DNA of 64,000 bases from Diphasiastrum complanatum (taxonomy: Eukaryota > Streptophyta > Lycopodiopsida > Lycopodiales > Lycopodiaceae): contig CM055108.1 of assembly GCA_029204225.1 (NCBI GenBank), positions 26,527,303 through 26,591,302 of the forward strand, read 5' to 3'. Under the pieces are notes generated by a model. The model did no database searches. It worked only from the letters and a program-made list of their open reading frames with translations, and was not told the origin of the DNA. Of the stretch, positions 3,730 to 11,703 are shown piece after piece (the first letter of the stretch is position 1; every line of letters starts with the position of its first letter). The translations under genes and the position numbers were made by a program.

Positions 3730-5040
3730 ATGGCATCAATGGGTGGATTTTCGCTTGAAGCTAGTGAAAGGCTCACATCCACTAATTATGCTGCTTAGGA
3801 ATCAAATTCTTCAAAGCATGAAATGAAGTAGTGAAAGTGCCCAAAATTATGTCTTTGGGATCAAATCTTTGAATAACGAGTTGTCTTCTATAGATGATAA
3901 AATCAAAGATGATGAGTTAGTTCAAATCATTTTGAATGGATTAGGAGATGATTATTCTAATCTTGTTCAAACCTTTGCTATTTAAGATTCACTTCCTAGT
4001 ATTGAAAAACTTCAAAGTGTGCTTGTAAGTGAGGAGAGTAGAATGCTTCACATCAAAAGTAGGATGAGTTCCTTATCTTTGAATGATGGTGATGAAAAAG
4101 CTAACTTTTCCTTGAAAGCCAAGAAGAAAAAGTTTCCATCCAAGAATACTCAAGACATGGAGATGGAGAGCAAGGATGGAGCATCAAGTTCCAAAGGAAA
4201 GAGCAAGAAGGACAAGAAGAAGCTGAAGTGTTTCTTTTGTAGTTAAAAGGGACATTTTGCATCCGAGTGCTACAAGATGAAGAATGCCCAAGAGAAGGAC
4301 AATCAAGGCAGGAAGAATGCAGTCTATCTTTGATGGTATCCTCACCACAAATATCTAATCAAGACACTTGGTGGATTGATAGTGGAGCAAGCTCCCACAT
4401 GACTCACCAAAAAGACTACTTTTCTAATCTACTTTCTTACAATAATTTTAAGAGATTTATGTTCACTACAAGTGATCAAGAATGTGAGATTGTAGGTGTT
4501 GGATCCATTCCTTTATGTCTAGGATCATAGTGTGAACATGGCAAGGGAAGAGCTAACTCAAGTGGAACTATGGCACAAAAGGTTAGGCCATCATAACTAC
4601 AAAGCTATGGAGACCATGGTGACAAAGGAGCTAGCAAGTGGACTTTCCAAAACCATATCCAAGTGTGACAAGCTTTGTGAAGCTTGTGGACTCTCCAAAT
4701 CTCATAAGCTACCTTTCAAGAGATCTTTGACAAGATCTAACTCTCCTCTTGACCTTATACACTCGGATGTTCATTCATTTTCACATGAATCTAATGGTGG
4801 AGCTATTATGTATGTCACTTTTATTGATGATAGATCAAGATACTCTTGGGTTTATCTCTTGTCTAAGAAAAGTGAAGTTTTTGAGTCCTTTGTAAGTTCA
4901 AAACTCTTGTGGAAAAGCAACTTAATACTAGCTTGAAGTATTAAGAAGTAATAATGGAGGGGAGTACATCTCCAATAGGATGAAAGAGTTTTGTAAAACT
5001 AATGGCATTAGGAGAGAGTTTATTTGCACATATACTCCAT
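3730..5040 (+). pseudogene. Decayed Ty1/copia gag-protease-integrase fragment
   Basis: Scattered frames spell out the front of a copia polyprotein. A gag start at 3730 has the S-L-E-A-S-E-R-L and T-N-Y-A phrases; gag continues to about 4250 and ends in a zinc knuckle C-F-F-C-(S-stop)-K-G-H-F-A-S-E-C. The aspartic protease motif W-W-I-D-S-G-A-S-S-H-M lies near 4372-4400. A GAG-pre-integrase HHCC segment (E-L-W-H-K-R-L-G-H to C-E-A-C, 4560-4690) precedes the integrase start (D-L-I-H-S-D-V, Y-V-T-F-I-D-D-R-S-R-Y, 4750-4850). Integrase breaks off near 5040, where a Y-T-P phrase diverges. Stops and frameshifts occur throughout, there is no RT or RNase H, and no LTR was found. The gag resembles element B at 28.5 kb, so this is probably a relative that kept integrase. 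Confidence 0.85.
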
Positions 5041-5505
5041 ATGGCATATCCTTGTACCAAGTTAGAATAATCTACACAAAGGGTCATTCAAGATCAGTTC
5101 TCAAAAGCTCATATTCCTTTATAGGCTCTCCTGTAAAGGCAAGTTCTTTGTTCTTTACCCTCAAAACATATGAATGAGCACCTTCCCCTTTCATTAGAGG
5201 AGTTACAAACATCAAAAGGGCCGTCTAAGAAATGCCATGTAGGACCAAAAAAAACACCGGATTTTAAAACTCAGACGGACTTTCAGGTCTAGTTTAGCTG
5301 AACCTTACTAATAATGTGTAGTTAACATGAGACGATTATGACGTATGCAACTGCGACTTCAAGAACCTATGACGCTCATTAACTAACTTTTTCAAATTTG
5401 AAAATGAGATTGTGTCCCTCGTTTTAACTAGCGAGAGAATAAACATAGAATCTCAGGTACGCCATGGATGAATAATAGTGTCTATTTTTTTTTTGGTCTG
5501 TCAGC

Positions 5506-8144
5506 TGATGTTTGCGGAGATGTCTCAGTTTCATCTACACATTGTTCTCCCTGCCGAGAATGCTCCGATAGCTAAAAGAGGAGTAGTGAAAGAATCCACA
5601 GTTTCTCCACTTGATATGATCGCTCACAGAATCAACCAAAGAAAGAATTACGATTTGTGGATTGACGGCAGTTTGTATGCATTGCATCTGAGCTCGATGC
5701 AAGCTCCACAATTCCAATCCATCACACAATTAATAAAGTTTTTGTGTGACGGAGAAAACGGTTTATTGGGTTATTGTAAAAGATTGACGACTTATGGTGT
5801 TGCAAACTAGGTTCAAAAAATTCCATGTTTAGAATGTATGTTAAATGGTTTGCTTGCTGACTATAGAGAAAAAGAGACCGCATTATTACAAACAAAAGAA
5901 GATAATGCACATTTACATAATATTATGTTAAATTTGAATGCAAGTGATGATCAATTCTGACAAGTTGTTCAGACATTACGTATATCAAATGACCATTTAA
6001 AAGAAGAAACTCGCATACTAGATAAGAAATTAAAAAGAAGCAAGCGAAAAAGAATTCTAAAGGACATTGATGAGCTTTCGCTAAATGGAGGCCAACGGAG
6101 AAAAAGGATTCAAGCATTCAAGTAAGGATTTGATTTGAATCAGTTTTATTTTAGTTTTGTGAAGTAGCATAACATTTATTATGTGTCCTATTTGGGTCTC
6201 TTGATTTTTATAATCATTTGCAGATCAGCATTGGTTGCAAATGAGCATCTGAAGGACAATGACCTGATCGGAAAATCATTGAGTTCGGTATTGACAACCA
6301 AGTCCACAAAGTCTTTATTGGACAATAATCGGTATTCTCGAATCAAGTCCAAGATCACTGAGGATTTGATGAACGAGGTCAGTAAGGTAATCGACCGAAC
6401 GTTAATTCAGGGAGCATGTGATTTCTCAGGTATTAGCAGGAAGGCATATGCCAGTATATTTAAAATTATTAAAGAGGCTTTTGGACAATTGCATGTAAGA
6501 AAATTTCTCATTCCTCGCCCTTTTCAGATAAGATTGGAGAGAGATGTATTGAATAAGGGTATGCAAAATGTCATTGGAATTCCTTTTCACATCAATGAGA
6601 TTTACAATTCAAAGTCTGGCAATTTGTCATATAATTCTACCAACAACTTATTTGTGGATTTGAATCATTTATTGAGATTTATAGTAAAATTCTATAATAT
6701 TACAAGTGTTAGTATGAGCAAACTTATTCTGGTGGTCAAGCTAGATGAATCGGAAGTTATAAAAGGACAAAAGTTGGAAAGAGTAAGTATTACTCTTATG
6801 AATGGAGCATTGAGCAATGCAACAAACTCAAGGGATCTCAACTTCAGTGTGCAATCAGAAAACAGCATACGGTGGCTAGCATATTTTCAGGTAAAAAATG
6901 GTTGTTATTCATGTGCAATTTCTTTTGGTAATTGTTTTGAATACATAAAAACTTGTGATTCCATATGTTGAACAGGTTATTAAGGAGGATCACGATGTTC
7001 TTTCCTGGATTTTTAGCAGAACAAGTTATCCCGATATCATAAAGGATCATATTAATGGCAAAGCACTTAGTGTTCTTGAAAGAGGTGAATTTTTGGTGGA
7101 ATGGCATTTAGCTGGAGATTTGAAGTCATTGAAATGTATGTTCAATGTATCTCATGGAGCAAATTTGAAACATCCATGTCTATATTGTATGAAATCATCA
7201 AATGACATTTCAAGGAACACAAGAGTTTCAAGAGATATTGAAGATCCCAACTGGAAACCAATACTACCAATCCCTTTACAAAATGTGCATATTTGCACAC
7301 TTCATGGAGGTGAGGATCATAGAGAAATTAATATATCTTCATATCTTGTTTGCATGGAATATCAAGCCAGAGTCAGCATCAAAACAAGCAATCGCTCGAT
7401 TAGAGGAAGTGTTGTCAAAAGCAGGCCTTCATAAAGGCCATGTTAAAATACAAAAAGATGAAAAGCTTTCGGGAAAAACAGGAAACGTACCCAATAAACC
7501 TAGCATAGGAGTCAAAGCTCGTCGATTTTTATCAAATCATTCTAAAGAGTCGTCTAAGATCCAATACTTGGTCTGGAAAGATGTTATTTCTGCAACAGAA
7601 GACTTTGAAGATAAAGGAACAAGGGTAAAGAAGGTTGAAGTTTGGAAAAAGCTCGATAATATGATTGAAGTGCTTAGAAAAGACACAATTTCATATGCAG
7701 ATGCACTTCTATTGGAGAAAACAACAATAGAGTTTGTAGATGCAGTTCGGGTGGCTTGGGGCTCATATCACATCACCCACTACATGGTAAGATACATTTG
7801 AACAGTGTCTTACAATTTTATAATTTTAGTATAACTTGCTTGATAGATTCTAACTAATGCATAAATCTTTGATATTGCAGCACATACTAAGGCATCATGC
7901 ATCATTTTTTGCAAAAAAGTATGGCAGTTTGAGTATATGGTCCTCACAAGGAATGGAGAAATCACATTTGCAGGCAAGAGCAGCATTTTATCGAAATACG
8001 CAACATGGTGGAACATCCTCAAAAAATAGTTACATCATTCAGCTATTCCAATGGTTTTATAGACGAGCTCAAGTTCAATACACAACAAGATCAACTGAAT
8101 ATCAAAGATTCAAAAAAGCATGTAAATTTATAAGCCAAAATTAG
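5506..8144 (+). pseudogene. RAG1/Transib-like recombinase, four exons, recently broken
   Basis: Exons by eye: about 5506-6121, 6224-6890, 6976-7786 and 7881-8144, with GT-AG introns of 102, 85 and 94 bp. The first exon seems to follow an acceptor (CTGTCAG) at 5505, so the true start is upstream and unseen. It encodes a coiled-coil-like region with C-L-E-C and holds two in-frame stops (TAG 5808, TGA about 5958). One extra G near 7307 shifts the frame. The rest is open and carries, in order, Asp (codon 6744, context V-V-K-L-D-E-S), Asp (7117, A-G-D-L-K-S-L), C-L-Y-C (7177-7188), H-I-L-R-H-H (7881-7898) and Glu (7956, Q-G-M-E-K). Spacings are 96, 20, 200, 5 and 20 residues. Mouse RAG1, from memory, has D600, D708, C727/C730, H937/H942, E962: 108, 19, 207, 5, 20. 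The C-terminal exon also resembles the RAG1 core (Y-G-S-L-S-I-W-S-S-Q-G). RAG1/Transib membership is a strong inference; function and terminal repeats are not shown. Confidence 0.75.
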
Positions 8145-8225: not shown

Positions 8226-8498
8226 TCATTTTTTTTCATTGTCTCTAAGGACAATTTTTGTTGTGTGGTCATGAAGGAACTTTTTCCTATCATACAGATC
8301 CAAAAATCGAGTGGATTGCCTTTTGCTCAAATCTATATATCTAGATAGAATTGCCAAAGCAGAGGATCTCATAGGAACATTTTCTGGCACATAATTAAAC
8401 ACTTTAAGAGCAACATCTCTTTTGAAAAAAATGATTCTATATGTACTTTTTGAGTATTTATGCCCTTGGGCAAAATAAGATAGGGCCTTGATGGCCAT
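8226..8498 (-). CDS. Unrecognised 90-codon ORF
   Basis: A short minus-strand frame lies between the two convergent genes, 82 bp beyond the RAG1-like stop and 96 bp downstream of the acidic gene's stop. It is basic (many Lys/Arg, ending R-D-N-E-K-K) with no motif I recognise. It could be a further 3' exon of the acidic gene or chance. Confidence 0.25.
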   Translation of the reverse strand: MAIKALSYFAQGHKYSKSTYRIIFFKRDVALKVFNYVPENVPMRSSALAILSRYIDLSKRQSTRFLDLYDRKKFLHDHTTKIVLRDNEKK

Positions 8499-8593
8499 GA
8501 TTAAATTCCCGCATTCACAAAAAACCTTTCATGAAAAGCACAAATTTTGTTATTCAAAAAATGTTTCAAATAATGAGCCAATGAGGCATCCTT

Positions 8594-9757
8594 CTATCTC
8601 CCACCTTGTCTCTCTCTCAATCCTCCATGTCTGCTAGCAAAGGCATCAACTTCAATGATATCCTACAACACATAATCAAGTGTTAGTCAAACTAGCAGAT
8701 CAATCATCAGTTACACATTAAATAGTAAATGATTTTCGTGAGAAGGTGTACTTACCAAATCTTCCTCGTCAGCTTGGATCATACCAGCAGCTTCTAAATT
8801 GTGACCAGCAATAATGGTGGATTGTTGATCAGCTGGAATAGTATATATGGGAGGTGGCAGATACTTTTTCTGAAAAGCCAAAAACTCCTCCTCACTCAAC
8901 ATATTAGCCTCATATGCCCTGCTCTCAGATAGCATCCTTTAAAAGGCATCTGTGCCACTTGCCCGTTCAAACTGGTCCTCATAGTCGATGCCATCTATGA
9001 GGTCGTCATCATCAAAGTCAATAAAATCATTAAATTTAGAAATCATCCTTGACATAAGAGATAATATCTCATCTTCTCTGAGATCCATTACGTCTCCGAT
9101 GTCGCTAATGGATAAGAATGCAATATCGTCCATATGGTACACAGGGTGGTCCATCAGGGTTCTGCTCTGGTCAATCTCGCTCATGGTAGATAAGGGAGAG
9201 ATAGACAGATAACGAGCCTTGGCAGGATCATATTGATGTGCTTGCCCGGCCTCCTCTACATCTCCTAAAACCTCATCAGTAATGGAAACCTCTAAAGCCA
9301 CATGAGTGGTAGGGGCAGGCAAACCAATCATGGACGACCCAGAAGATTTTGCCTCATCAGGGATAAGAGCAGATAAGAAAAATACGAAGGCCATACCCTC
9401 CTGAACAAAGTGACACACTCGATTGTGTTCCTCACAAGGTATGACACGTTTAAACGGATCGATAAGTTTGGTAAACTTATGATCATGCCTTTTCTTGGCA
9501 CTAGGCTAAGCATGAGTCAAATCTATGAAATGCACAAATCTCAGGCCGTCCATCAGAAGGGTACCCTGTTGCAAGCACTCATAAAAATCCTTGTACAATT
9601 TAGAAAAAATTTCCCTGTGCTCAATAACAAATCTCTCTATGTCAAACTGAAAATCGAAATAGGACAAAAAATGGGCCTGTCTGTCGCTAACCTCAGCATC
9701 AACAAGGAAAGAACTAAGAGCTTTATAATAGATCGAACTAGTAGAAGAGGAGGCCAT
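8594..9757 (-). pseudogene. Unrecognised acidic protein gene, two exons
   Basis: On the minus strand an ATG at 9757 opens a frame running to a GT donor after 8756. A 93-bp intron (8663-8755, GTAAGT to TGTTGTAG) leads to a second exon ending in TAG at 8594. Exon 1 is one continuous frame of 334 codons broken by two in-frame stops, TAG at 9506-9508 and TAA at 8939-8941; coding-like sequence continues on both sides of each. The product would be about 356 residues. The N-terminal third is alpha-helical and aromatic (Y-F-D-F-Q-F-D-I-E-R-F). The centre is strongly acidic, including D-F-D-D-D-D-L-I-D, and the C-terminal part contains E-E-E-F-L-A-F-Q-K-K-Y. No domain is recognised, and no Kelch repeats are visible, so it is not an obvious RAG2 analogue. 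It converges on the RAG1-like gene and diverges from the H3-like gene. Confidence 0.5.
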
Positions 9758-10604: not shown

Positions 10605-10979
10605 ATGGCCCGTACCAAACAAACAGCACGCCTTACCACATTTGCCCTGCCTCCTCGCCCTCCTGTACAAAGGGCAGTGGGCACTAGTAGGAGAGTATGT
10701 TGGCCCAGAAGACCATGGTTAAGAGATATCAGGAGACTTCAGAGGACAACAAATCTTCTGATTCTTCGTGCTCCTTTCTACAGGTTTGTGAGATTAGTAA
10801 CAAGGTCACTCTCACATGATGTTTTCTGGAACATAACAACCCTGGAAGCCCTCCATACTGCCTATGAGGACTTTCGAGTCAAATTCTTTGAGGACTCCAC
10901 GCTTTGCACAGTGCACGCTAAGAGAGTTACCCTCATGGCTCAGGACATGCATCTTGTCATGAGGCTGAGGAGTACATAA
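10605..10979 (+). CDS. Highly divergent histone H3-like protein
   Basis: An uninterrupted 124-residue frame starts M-A-R-T-K-Q-T-A-R, identical to canonical H3. It ends with an H3 fold carrying diagnostic phrases: L-R-D-I-R-R-L-Q in the alphaN helix, P-F-Y-R-F-V-R in alpha1, and F-E-D-S-T-L-C-T-V-H-A-K-R-V-T-L-M in alpha2/loop2/alpha3. Against canonical H3 (known to me) the fold core aligns without gaps, including loop 1. The tail is about 10 residues shorter, K4 is kept, K9 becomes Leu, and the K27/K36 surroundings are replaced by a Pro/Arg-rich stretch. CENH3 usually has a longer loop 1, so a centromeric role is not obvious. The frame after the stop stays open for about 70 codons and is basic. 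It has its own TATA box and divergent neighbour, and it is intact while nearby genes carry stops. Confidence 0.85.
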   Translation: MARTKQTARLTTFALPPRPPVQRAVGTSRRVCWPRRPWLRDIRRLQRTTNLLILRAPFYRFVRLVTRSLSHDVFWNITTLEALHTAYEDFRVKFFEDSTLCTVHAKRVTLMAQDMHLVMRLRST

Positions 10980-11100
10980 GATCAGGTCTTTAAGAGTGGC
11001 TTCACCTCTAGGCCACCACCTACAAAGAGAGGTCTTGTTCCTCAACGAAGAATGAGGAAGCAGACCAAGCCCACCAGGCCTGCAAAGCAAAGGGTGGTAC

Positions 11101-11703
11101 TTGGCGAATCACCATCCCCCCCATCACATCTCTCGTCCTTTGGTTGGACCATCACACCAGTCTGCAGTGCCTTCTTCTCGTCCCACCACCCCTAACTATT
11201 CAAGTAGTTCCTCTCCCATTCCCTCCATTCCATCCCACAATAACGAGGATATGAACTCGACTATAGATAAAATAATATCGGATCTAGATTTAAGTTTAAT
11301 AGGTGATTTTTATAAGGATCTTTGTGTAAGATCTCATGTTGATCCCAAAGATTCATTTTTGGATTCTGAGAGGTATATAATTTCTGATGAGTATGTTGCC
11401 AAAGAAATTGATAAGCTAGGAGGTCAATTTTCTTTTTGTCTAAGTTCACTTGATTATGTAAATCACATAAATAAAGACTTTTGTGATGCCCTGAAGGAGA
11501 AGACCTCAGATATATCAGATCCAGTTGTGGAGGCTGGTTTGATGTATTTTGTAAATAGATGTAAATCCGATTATAGTAAGGACATTGGAGTTGTGTTGTC
11601 CTTTTTTGCACACAGCCTTCATAGTCCAACTAAGGCGACAAGATATCTTCTCCTTACAACCTCAGAGACCAAAGTCTTTATTATTCCATACTGCTATTAC
11701 TAG
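11101..11703 (+). CDS. Unrecognised Ser/Pro-rich N-terminus plus helical domain
   Basis: An open frame of 200 codons begins 122 bp after the H3-like stop; its first ATG is at 11251 and the frame is open from 11101. The upstream part is rich in Ser, Pro and His. From about 11250 it is helical and acidic, with D-K-L-G-G-Q-F-S-F-C and Y-F-V-N-R-C-K-S phrases. No family is recognised. It lies one base out of frame with the readthrough of the H3-like ORF, so it could be a C-terminal extension of that gene separated by a stop and a frameshift, or a separate exon. Composition looks coding-like. Confidence 0.35.
   Translation: MANHHPPHHISRPLVGPSHQSAVPSSRPTTPNYSSSSSPIPSIPSHNNEDMNSTIDKIISDLDLSLIGDFYKDLCVRSHVDPKDSFLDSERYIISDEYVAKEIDKLGGQFSFCLSSLDYVNHINKDFCDALKEKTSDISDPVVEAGLMYFVNRCKSDYSKDIGVVLSFFAHSLHSPTKATRYLLLTTSETKVFIIPYCYY

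Follow-up and report, generated by a model that had tools for sequence, protein, structure and literature searches.

Can an enzyme of the RAG1 type be encoded in the genome of a land plant and, if so, does it belong to the host or to a mobile element? This question is raised by a 64,000-nucleotide stretch of DNA of the lycophyte Diphasiastrum complanatum (assembly GCA_029204225.1, contig CM055108.1, positions 26,527,303 to 26,591,302 of the forward strand), hereafter the window, in which a preliminary description made from the letters alone had recognised a RAG1/Transib-type recombinase core spread over three exons. In the parts of PMC7204232 that treat their distribution, the RAG1-like genes of Transib are assigned to protostomes, cnidarians, fungi and echinoderms, and RAG-like elements to animals. 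Among the open-access matches listed, with Repbase outside the scope of the search, neither a RAG1-like plant element nor a plant transposon with a histone H3 is described. Our answer is that the locus is very probably a decayed transposase from a family of cut-and-paste DNA transposons that combine an enzyme of RAG1 core fold with an accessory gene, a histone H3 gene and, towards the right end, one more gene.

The transposase gene lies on the forward strand, and the three exons that carry the motif are those of the preliminary description. Exon 2 (6224..6890), the exon whose genomic matches are counted below, holds the first catalytic Asp (6744-6746), exon 3 (6976..7786) the second Asp (7117) and the C-x2-C pair (7177/7186), and exon 4 (7881..8144) the H-x4-H pair (7881/7896) and the catalytic Glu (7956-7958); all these codons are where they had been placed, and the splice sites are canonical. 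Upstream, exon 1 (5508..6121, forward strand), which would encode the N-terminal region, is delimited by its frame, its donor site and a putative start codon; it resembles by eye the N-terminal part of the homologues P0001 and P0005 and contains two in-frame stops. With these stops and a change of frame near 7300 in exon 3, which had also been spotted earlier, the window copy is not intact. Among 19 other copies from the genome, L010 is the only one with exons 2 and 3 free of stops that also reaches exon 4, where it has one stop; L009 and L011 carry one stop each in exon 3, and L011 one more in exon 4. When stops are read as X, the spacing in these three copies is D-96-D-20-C-3-C-203-H-5-H-20-E, to be compared with 97, 20, 3, 231, 5 and 19 in homologue P0001 and with 108, 19, 3, 207, 5 and 20 in mouse RAG1, whose positions as first given (D600, D708, C727, C730, H937, H942 and E962) are correct when compared with the PDB chain. 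The order of the residues stands as first given, and the interval of 200 from Cys to His is corrected to 203.

The conservation of this motif exceeds chance. A search with the L010 core returned 34 proteins (E 2.6e-119 to 9.2e-66), and a profile search returned 58 rows, 38 of them new, for a total of 72 relatives. In an alignment of 70 homologues, 58 of the 61 letters in the column of the first Asp are D, as are 55 of 56 in that of the second, and the Cys pair is kept in 53 of 55 and 52 of 54; in the few homologues that extend to the last exon, all 12 letters at the second His and all 5 at the Glu agree. At the first His, H accounts for just 2 of 39 letters, since most homologues run on into an intron at this point. 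Indeed, at the place of the intron before exon 4, 33 of the 35 homologues that reach the site show THYM or a similar word and then V, like a translated GT donor, while the remaining two continue directly into HIL. As its place is common to 33 of 35 homologues, this intron is probably old. Many public protein predictions (P0002-P0046) end or go astray upstream of the catalytic Glu, as would follow from the same apparent reading through of one conserved splice donor. No precomputed Pfam domain is attached to 70 of the 72 relatives; the other two, P0066 and P0068 from the fern Adiantum nelumboides, are apparently fused gene models, as judged by eye.

To what kind of enzyme does this motif belong? 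The preliminary description had proposed both an HMMER search against Pfam and a comparison of predicted structures. The second bore out the proposal: the best structural matches of the model of P0001 are RAG1 and BbRAGL, and the model is predicted to have the RNase H D-D-E domain and the ZnC2/ZnH2 parts of the RAG1 core, as well as the fold of the Transib transposase. The likeness to RAG1, ProtoRAG and BbRAGL begins with the pre-RNase H region, ends with the C-terminal zinc helices and takes in the D-D-E, C-x2-C and H-x4-H residues and their spacing. The Pfam search went the other way: up to E 10, no family was returned for the L010 core. The 25 of 46 weak Pfam families listed for the remaining 33 members include no RAG1 family; neither phmmer nor a profile search against PDB gave a RAG1 match, and BFVD gave nothing at E 0.001. 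In hhalign comparisons with nine RAG1/RAGL sequences, two uncurated alignments reached P 0.0071 and 0.0015. Once the intron read-through had been removed, P was 1.2e-4 and the score 46.2, versus a maximum of 25.7 (mean 17.6, standard deviation 2.5) for 120 column-shuffled RAG1 profiles and 20.2 for the reversed profile. The curated alignment contains the stretch ITPYMHILLVHGPYYATQ-GSLAIWSTQGMERSH, and its register agrees with the motif at C-x2-C, at the His pair and at the Glu. The sequence signal linking this family to RAG1 is real but thin; the likeness is invisible to sequence-only searches, and it takes structure and profile-profile comparison to see it.

The motif itself has a wider meaning than was first given to it. 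In the parts of Kojima 2025 (PMC12730594) devoted to the CMCT group, the motif of the group is given as C(2)C plus H(3-4)H, placed after the second D and before the E, and CA..TG termini and a 2-5 bp duplication are named as its traits. The family has this D-D-C(2)C-H(3-4)H-E arrangement and, since it is common to the wider group, the motif marks CMCT and not RAG1. From the RAG1/Transib-type core that had been claimed, we therefore retain the fold, the D-D-E triad and the zinc ligands, but neither a Pfam RAG1 match nor a motif specific to RAG1.

The locus is a copy of a transposon family, found with shared ends at many places and in differing flanks. Exon 2 matches at least 144 distinct genome places with 74-100% identity, a lower bound, as 144 of 11,624 first candidates were scored (a 145th row is a fragment beside another). 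As a number of insertions, 144 is an overstatement, since some copies form pairs whose flanks are near-identical too: L015/L016, L018/L020 and L021/L024 (99.4-99.9% over 7.4-9.8 kb), and L009/L011, which have 40 bases of left flank in common. Such pairs have the look of segmental duplications or of assembly pieces present twice. Among 20 copies fetched with their flanks, 16 start at the base equal to window 5192, in 12 different flanks. This base opens the left terminal inverted repeat (CATTAGAGGAGTTACA..., 5192..5224, forward strand), which pairs with the inverted right end seen in L014/L033 and L019, 24 of the first 33 bases being the same. The left end reads CATTAGA and the right end CGTTATA, with no CAC-type heptamer-like terminus; CA opens the left end, the L014 right end gives CG when read inward, and a small element in L022 has CA..TG. 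On the other side of the window element, L023 and L028 match up to 11857 and then have further sequence in common. With similarity ending there, the right end is missing from the window element, and no match to the right part of L014/L033 was found in the window. The L014 copy measures 7,574 bases with internal deletions, and the overlaps between copies suggest an undeleted element of about 9 kb. Small inverted-repeat elements nested in L017 (2488-2862, 375 bases) and L022 (3002-3379, 378 bases) start at either end with nearly the 13 bases that open the transposon (exact in L022, one mismatch per end in L017), as expected of putative non-autonomous relatives. A third small element begins at window 63836.

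Several points weigh against reading the locus as a transposon with a RAG1-fold enzyme. No 2-5 bp target-site duplication is present at four insertion sites: L014 (one T in common) and L019 have none, and for the two nested small elements, comparison with the empty sites found in other copies shows no duplication at the one in L017 and the loss of one A from a five-A run at the one in L022. This negative covers four sites, two of them those of small elements whose only tie to the family is their ends. The structure model is that of the homologue P0001 and not of the window protein, and no Pfam RAG1 model matches the L010 core (up to E 10) or P0001 (up to E 1). The hhalign probability is 55% with the curated alignment and just 5 and 17% with the uncurated ones, and the second Asp is out of the motif register in this comparison. 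Finally, the last exon is covered by few homologues, and each of the 20 translated copies (the window and 19 others) bears some damage.

The family also carries a divergent histone H3. In the window its gene is a single exon on the forward strand (10605..10979, 124 amino acids, Pfam Histone E 1.6e-22), and the H3 of copy L017 matches H3 in PDB (E 1.8e-25), both matches being to the H3-type histone fold; the best 60 of 176 PDB rows are headed by H3.Y, H3mm15, H3.3 and H3.1. At least 150 H3 places exist in the genome, some with stops, a lower bound from 150 of 6,652 candidates scored. They are linked to the transposase: 49 of the 144 transposase places are followed on their own strand, no more than 12 kb downstream and often at about 3.6 kb, by an H3 place, and the pairs within 12 kb number 51 in all (49 on the same strand, 50 downstream) where 0.3 would be expected. 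For the remaining 101 H3 places, none of the scored transposase places is so close, the transposase list being a lower bound. In 11 of the 150 H3 copies, among them those of the window and L017 and two with stops, the pooled ratio of nonsynonymous to synonymous change (pN/pS) is 0.284 (pair median 0.289, range 0.085-1.701), the fold giving 0.20 and the tail 0.66, values biased down by the choice of nine copies as best protein matches to L017; partial copies in L014, L023 and L028 were left out. The corresponding ratio is 0.57 in transposase exon 2 (20 copies). The 11 copies are identical to H3.3 at 53-59 of 120-122 residues, and in all of them K4 is the sole lysine within residues 1-37. K9, K27 and K36 are gone, which suggests a histone unable to carry K9 or K27 methylation. 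A CENH3 origin, suggested by a few residues (RW, EDF), was set aside on a comparison with H3.3, whose loop 1 has the same length, and on the PDB rows listed, the best of which are the H3 proteins just named. Most CENH3 have a longer loop 1.

The capture of a histone H3 by a DNA transposon, followed by multiplication to hundreds of copies, has a counterpart in hAT elements of Pseudocercospora fijiensis and relatives; in the parts of PMC6710886 that describe it, truncation affects 90% of the H3 copies and in P. fijiensis only the original has escaped inactivation, while putatively functional copies are mentioned for Pyrenophora tritici-repentis. The element studied here differs from that of P. 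fijiensis by its transposase and by an H3 that is full-length and divergent, with a low pN/pS in the fold. Anti-silencing cargo of other kinds (TET/JBP, SET and Vandal proteins) is cited for other transposons in a part of PMC12730594.

Other genes accompany these two. Gene B lies tail-to-tail with the transposase on the reverse strand (8229..9757), with a first exon of about 340 amino acids and a short second one, both with putative limits, and is broken in the window. Its frame can be traced in 12 aligned copies, with at least one internal stop in each and a single one in six; tblastn also finds the gene in copies, and it has an acidic stretch. No Pfam or PDB match passed and neither kelch nor PHD was matched, so no RAG2-like partner is recognised; folded as a candidate RAG2-like propeller, it gave an AlphaFold2 model without confidence (pLDDT 31.6). 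Inside the element, an open reading frame at 11056..11703 (forward strand), for which L028, L023 and L017 have similar readings in pieces, matches no Pfam family up to E 1. Towards the right end of the element lies another multi-exon gene (L019:2745-3800, plus strand of that copy, also in L014/L033), in minus orientation relative to the transposase; it was not found in the truncated window copy and has no Pfam match. Immediately to the left of the element, a Copia-like gag-pol remnant was recognised by eye from its translation (3986-5177).

How else could the family be understood? It might be a divergent branch of EnSpm/CACTA (or of Plavaka, ESTA or Lanisha), resembling RAG1 only because RAG1 and Transib are the CMCT members with solved structures, and we regard this as a serious possibility that falls somewhat short of even. 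CACTA elements are abundant in plants, and the element starts with CATTAG, which is close to CACTA. With these groups it shares a C(2)C and an H(3-4)H in the interval from the second D to the E, and the 5' CA, CMCT termini being mostly 5'-CA..TG-3' in the relevant parts of PMC12730594. However, the CACTA model PF02992 matches neither the L010 core (up to E 10) nor P0001 (up to E 1), although the RAG1 models are unmatched too, and it is not among the 25 of 46 weak Pfam families listed for the 34 members. The start is moreover CATTA and not CACTA, and the four sites show no 3-bp duplication, nor any of 2-5 bp.

That a true Transib or RAG-like element reached plants by horizontal transfer seems to us quite improbable. 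RAG1 and BbRAGL are the best structural matches, and the second gene converges on the transposase as RAG2L does in RAGL elements, according to the corresponding part of PMC7204232. Yet the family is recognisable in RAG1 at the level of profile and fold only, with no RAG1 chain in the PDB profile search, and it departs from RAG1/RAGL in the missing Pfam RAG1 match (L010 core and P0001), in its terminal sequence (a CATTAGA start and not a CAC heptamer), in the absence of a 5-bp duplication at the four sites, in a gene B without kelch or PHD match, in its histone cargo and in its plant host. From Transib (HzTransib) it differs in terminal sequence, in target duplication, in a larger N-terminal region with one long predicted helix and in having several genes per element. 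A domesticated single-copy host recombinase, suggested by a multi-exon gene with a conserved intron place, is refuted for this locus by at least 144 places with ends in common, many of them with stops, and a viral or bacterial element is unlikely within IMG/VR and 84,980 prokaryote species, where pattern-based scans with tblastn confirmation found no relatives.

In the decayed transposon family with a RAG1-fold enzyme that we favour, the transposase would consist of an RNase H domain with the D-D-E triad and a large helical insertion, braced by a zinc site formed from C-x2-C before and H-x4-H after this insertion. By analogy with RAG1, Transib and hAT, it would most likely bind the inverted repeats as a dimer, and would most likely proceed by nicking, then by forming hairpins on the flanking DNA, and then by inserting the freed ends. 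In P0001, the long helix predicted at 65-137, close to the N-terminus and perhaps forming a coiled coil, may aid dimerisation, and the H3 may shield the chromatin of the element from silencing. A bolder version, which we consider rather unlikely, would see here an undescribed superfamily of eukaryotic transposons, sister to but outside both Transib/RAG and CACTA, living in non-seed plants and in intron-bearing environmental genomes, with a RAG1-fold transposase, without target duplication, and with its own H3 that keeps K4 but no other tail lysine and would keep the chromatin of the element open; lacking K9, K27, K36 and the others, nucleosomes with this H3 could not take the usual silencing marks.

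The presence in a plant of a large family with this core fold widens the known range of RAG1-like enzymes and, by providing an outgroup for the origin of the zinc-braced core, makes it possible to ask how much of RAG1 is ancient, and which parts. A full-length, divergent H3 without silencing lysines on a mobile element would be a new form of anti-silencing cargo, and it suggests a way in which such elements might resist silencing.
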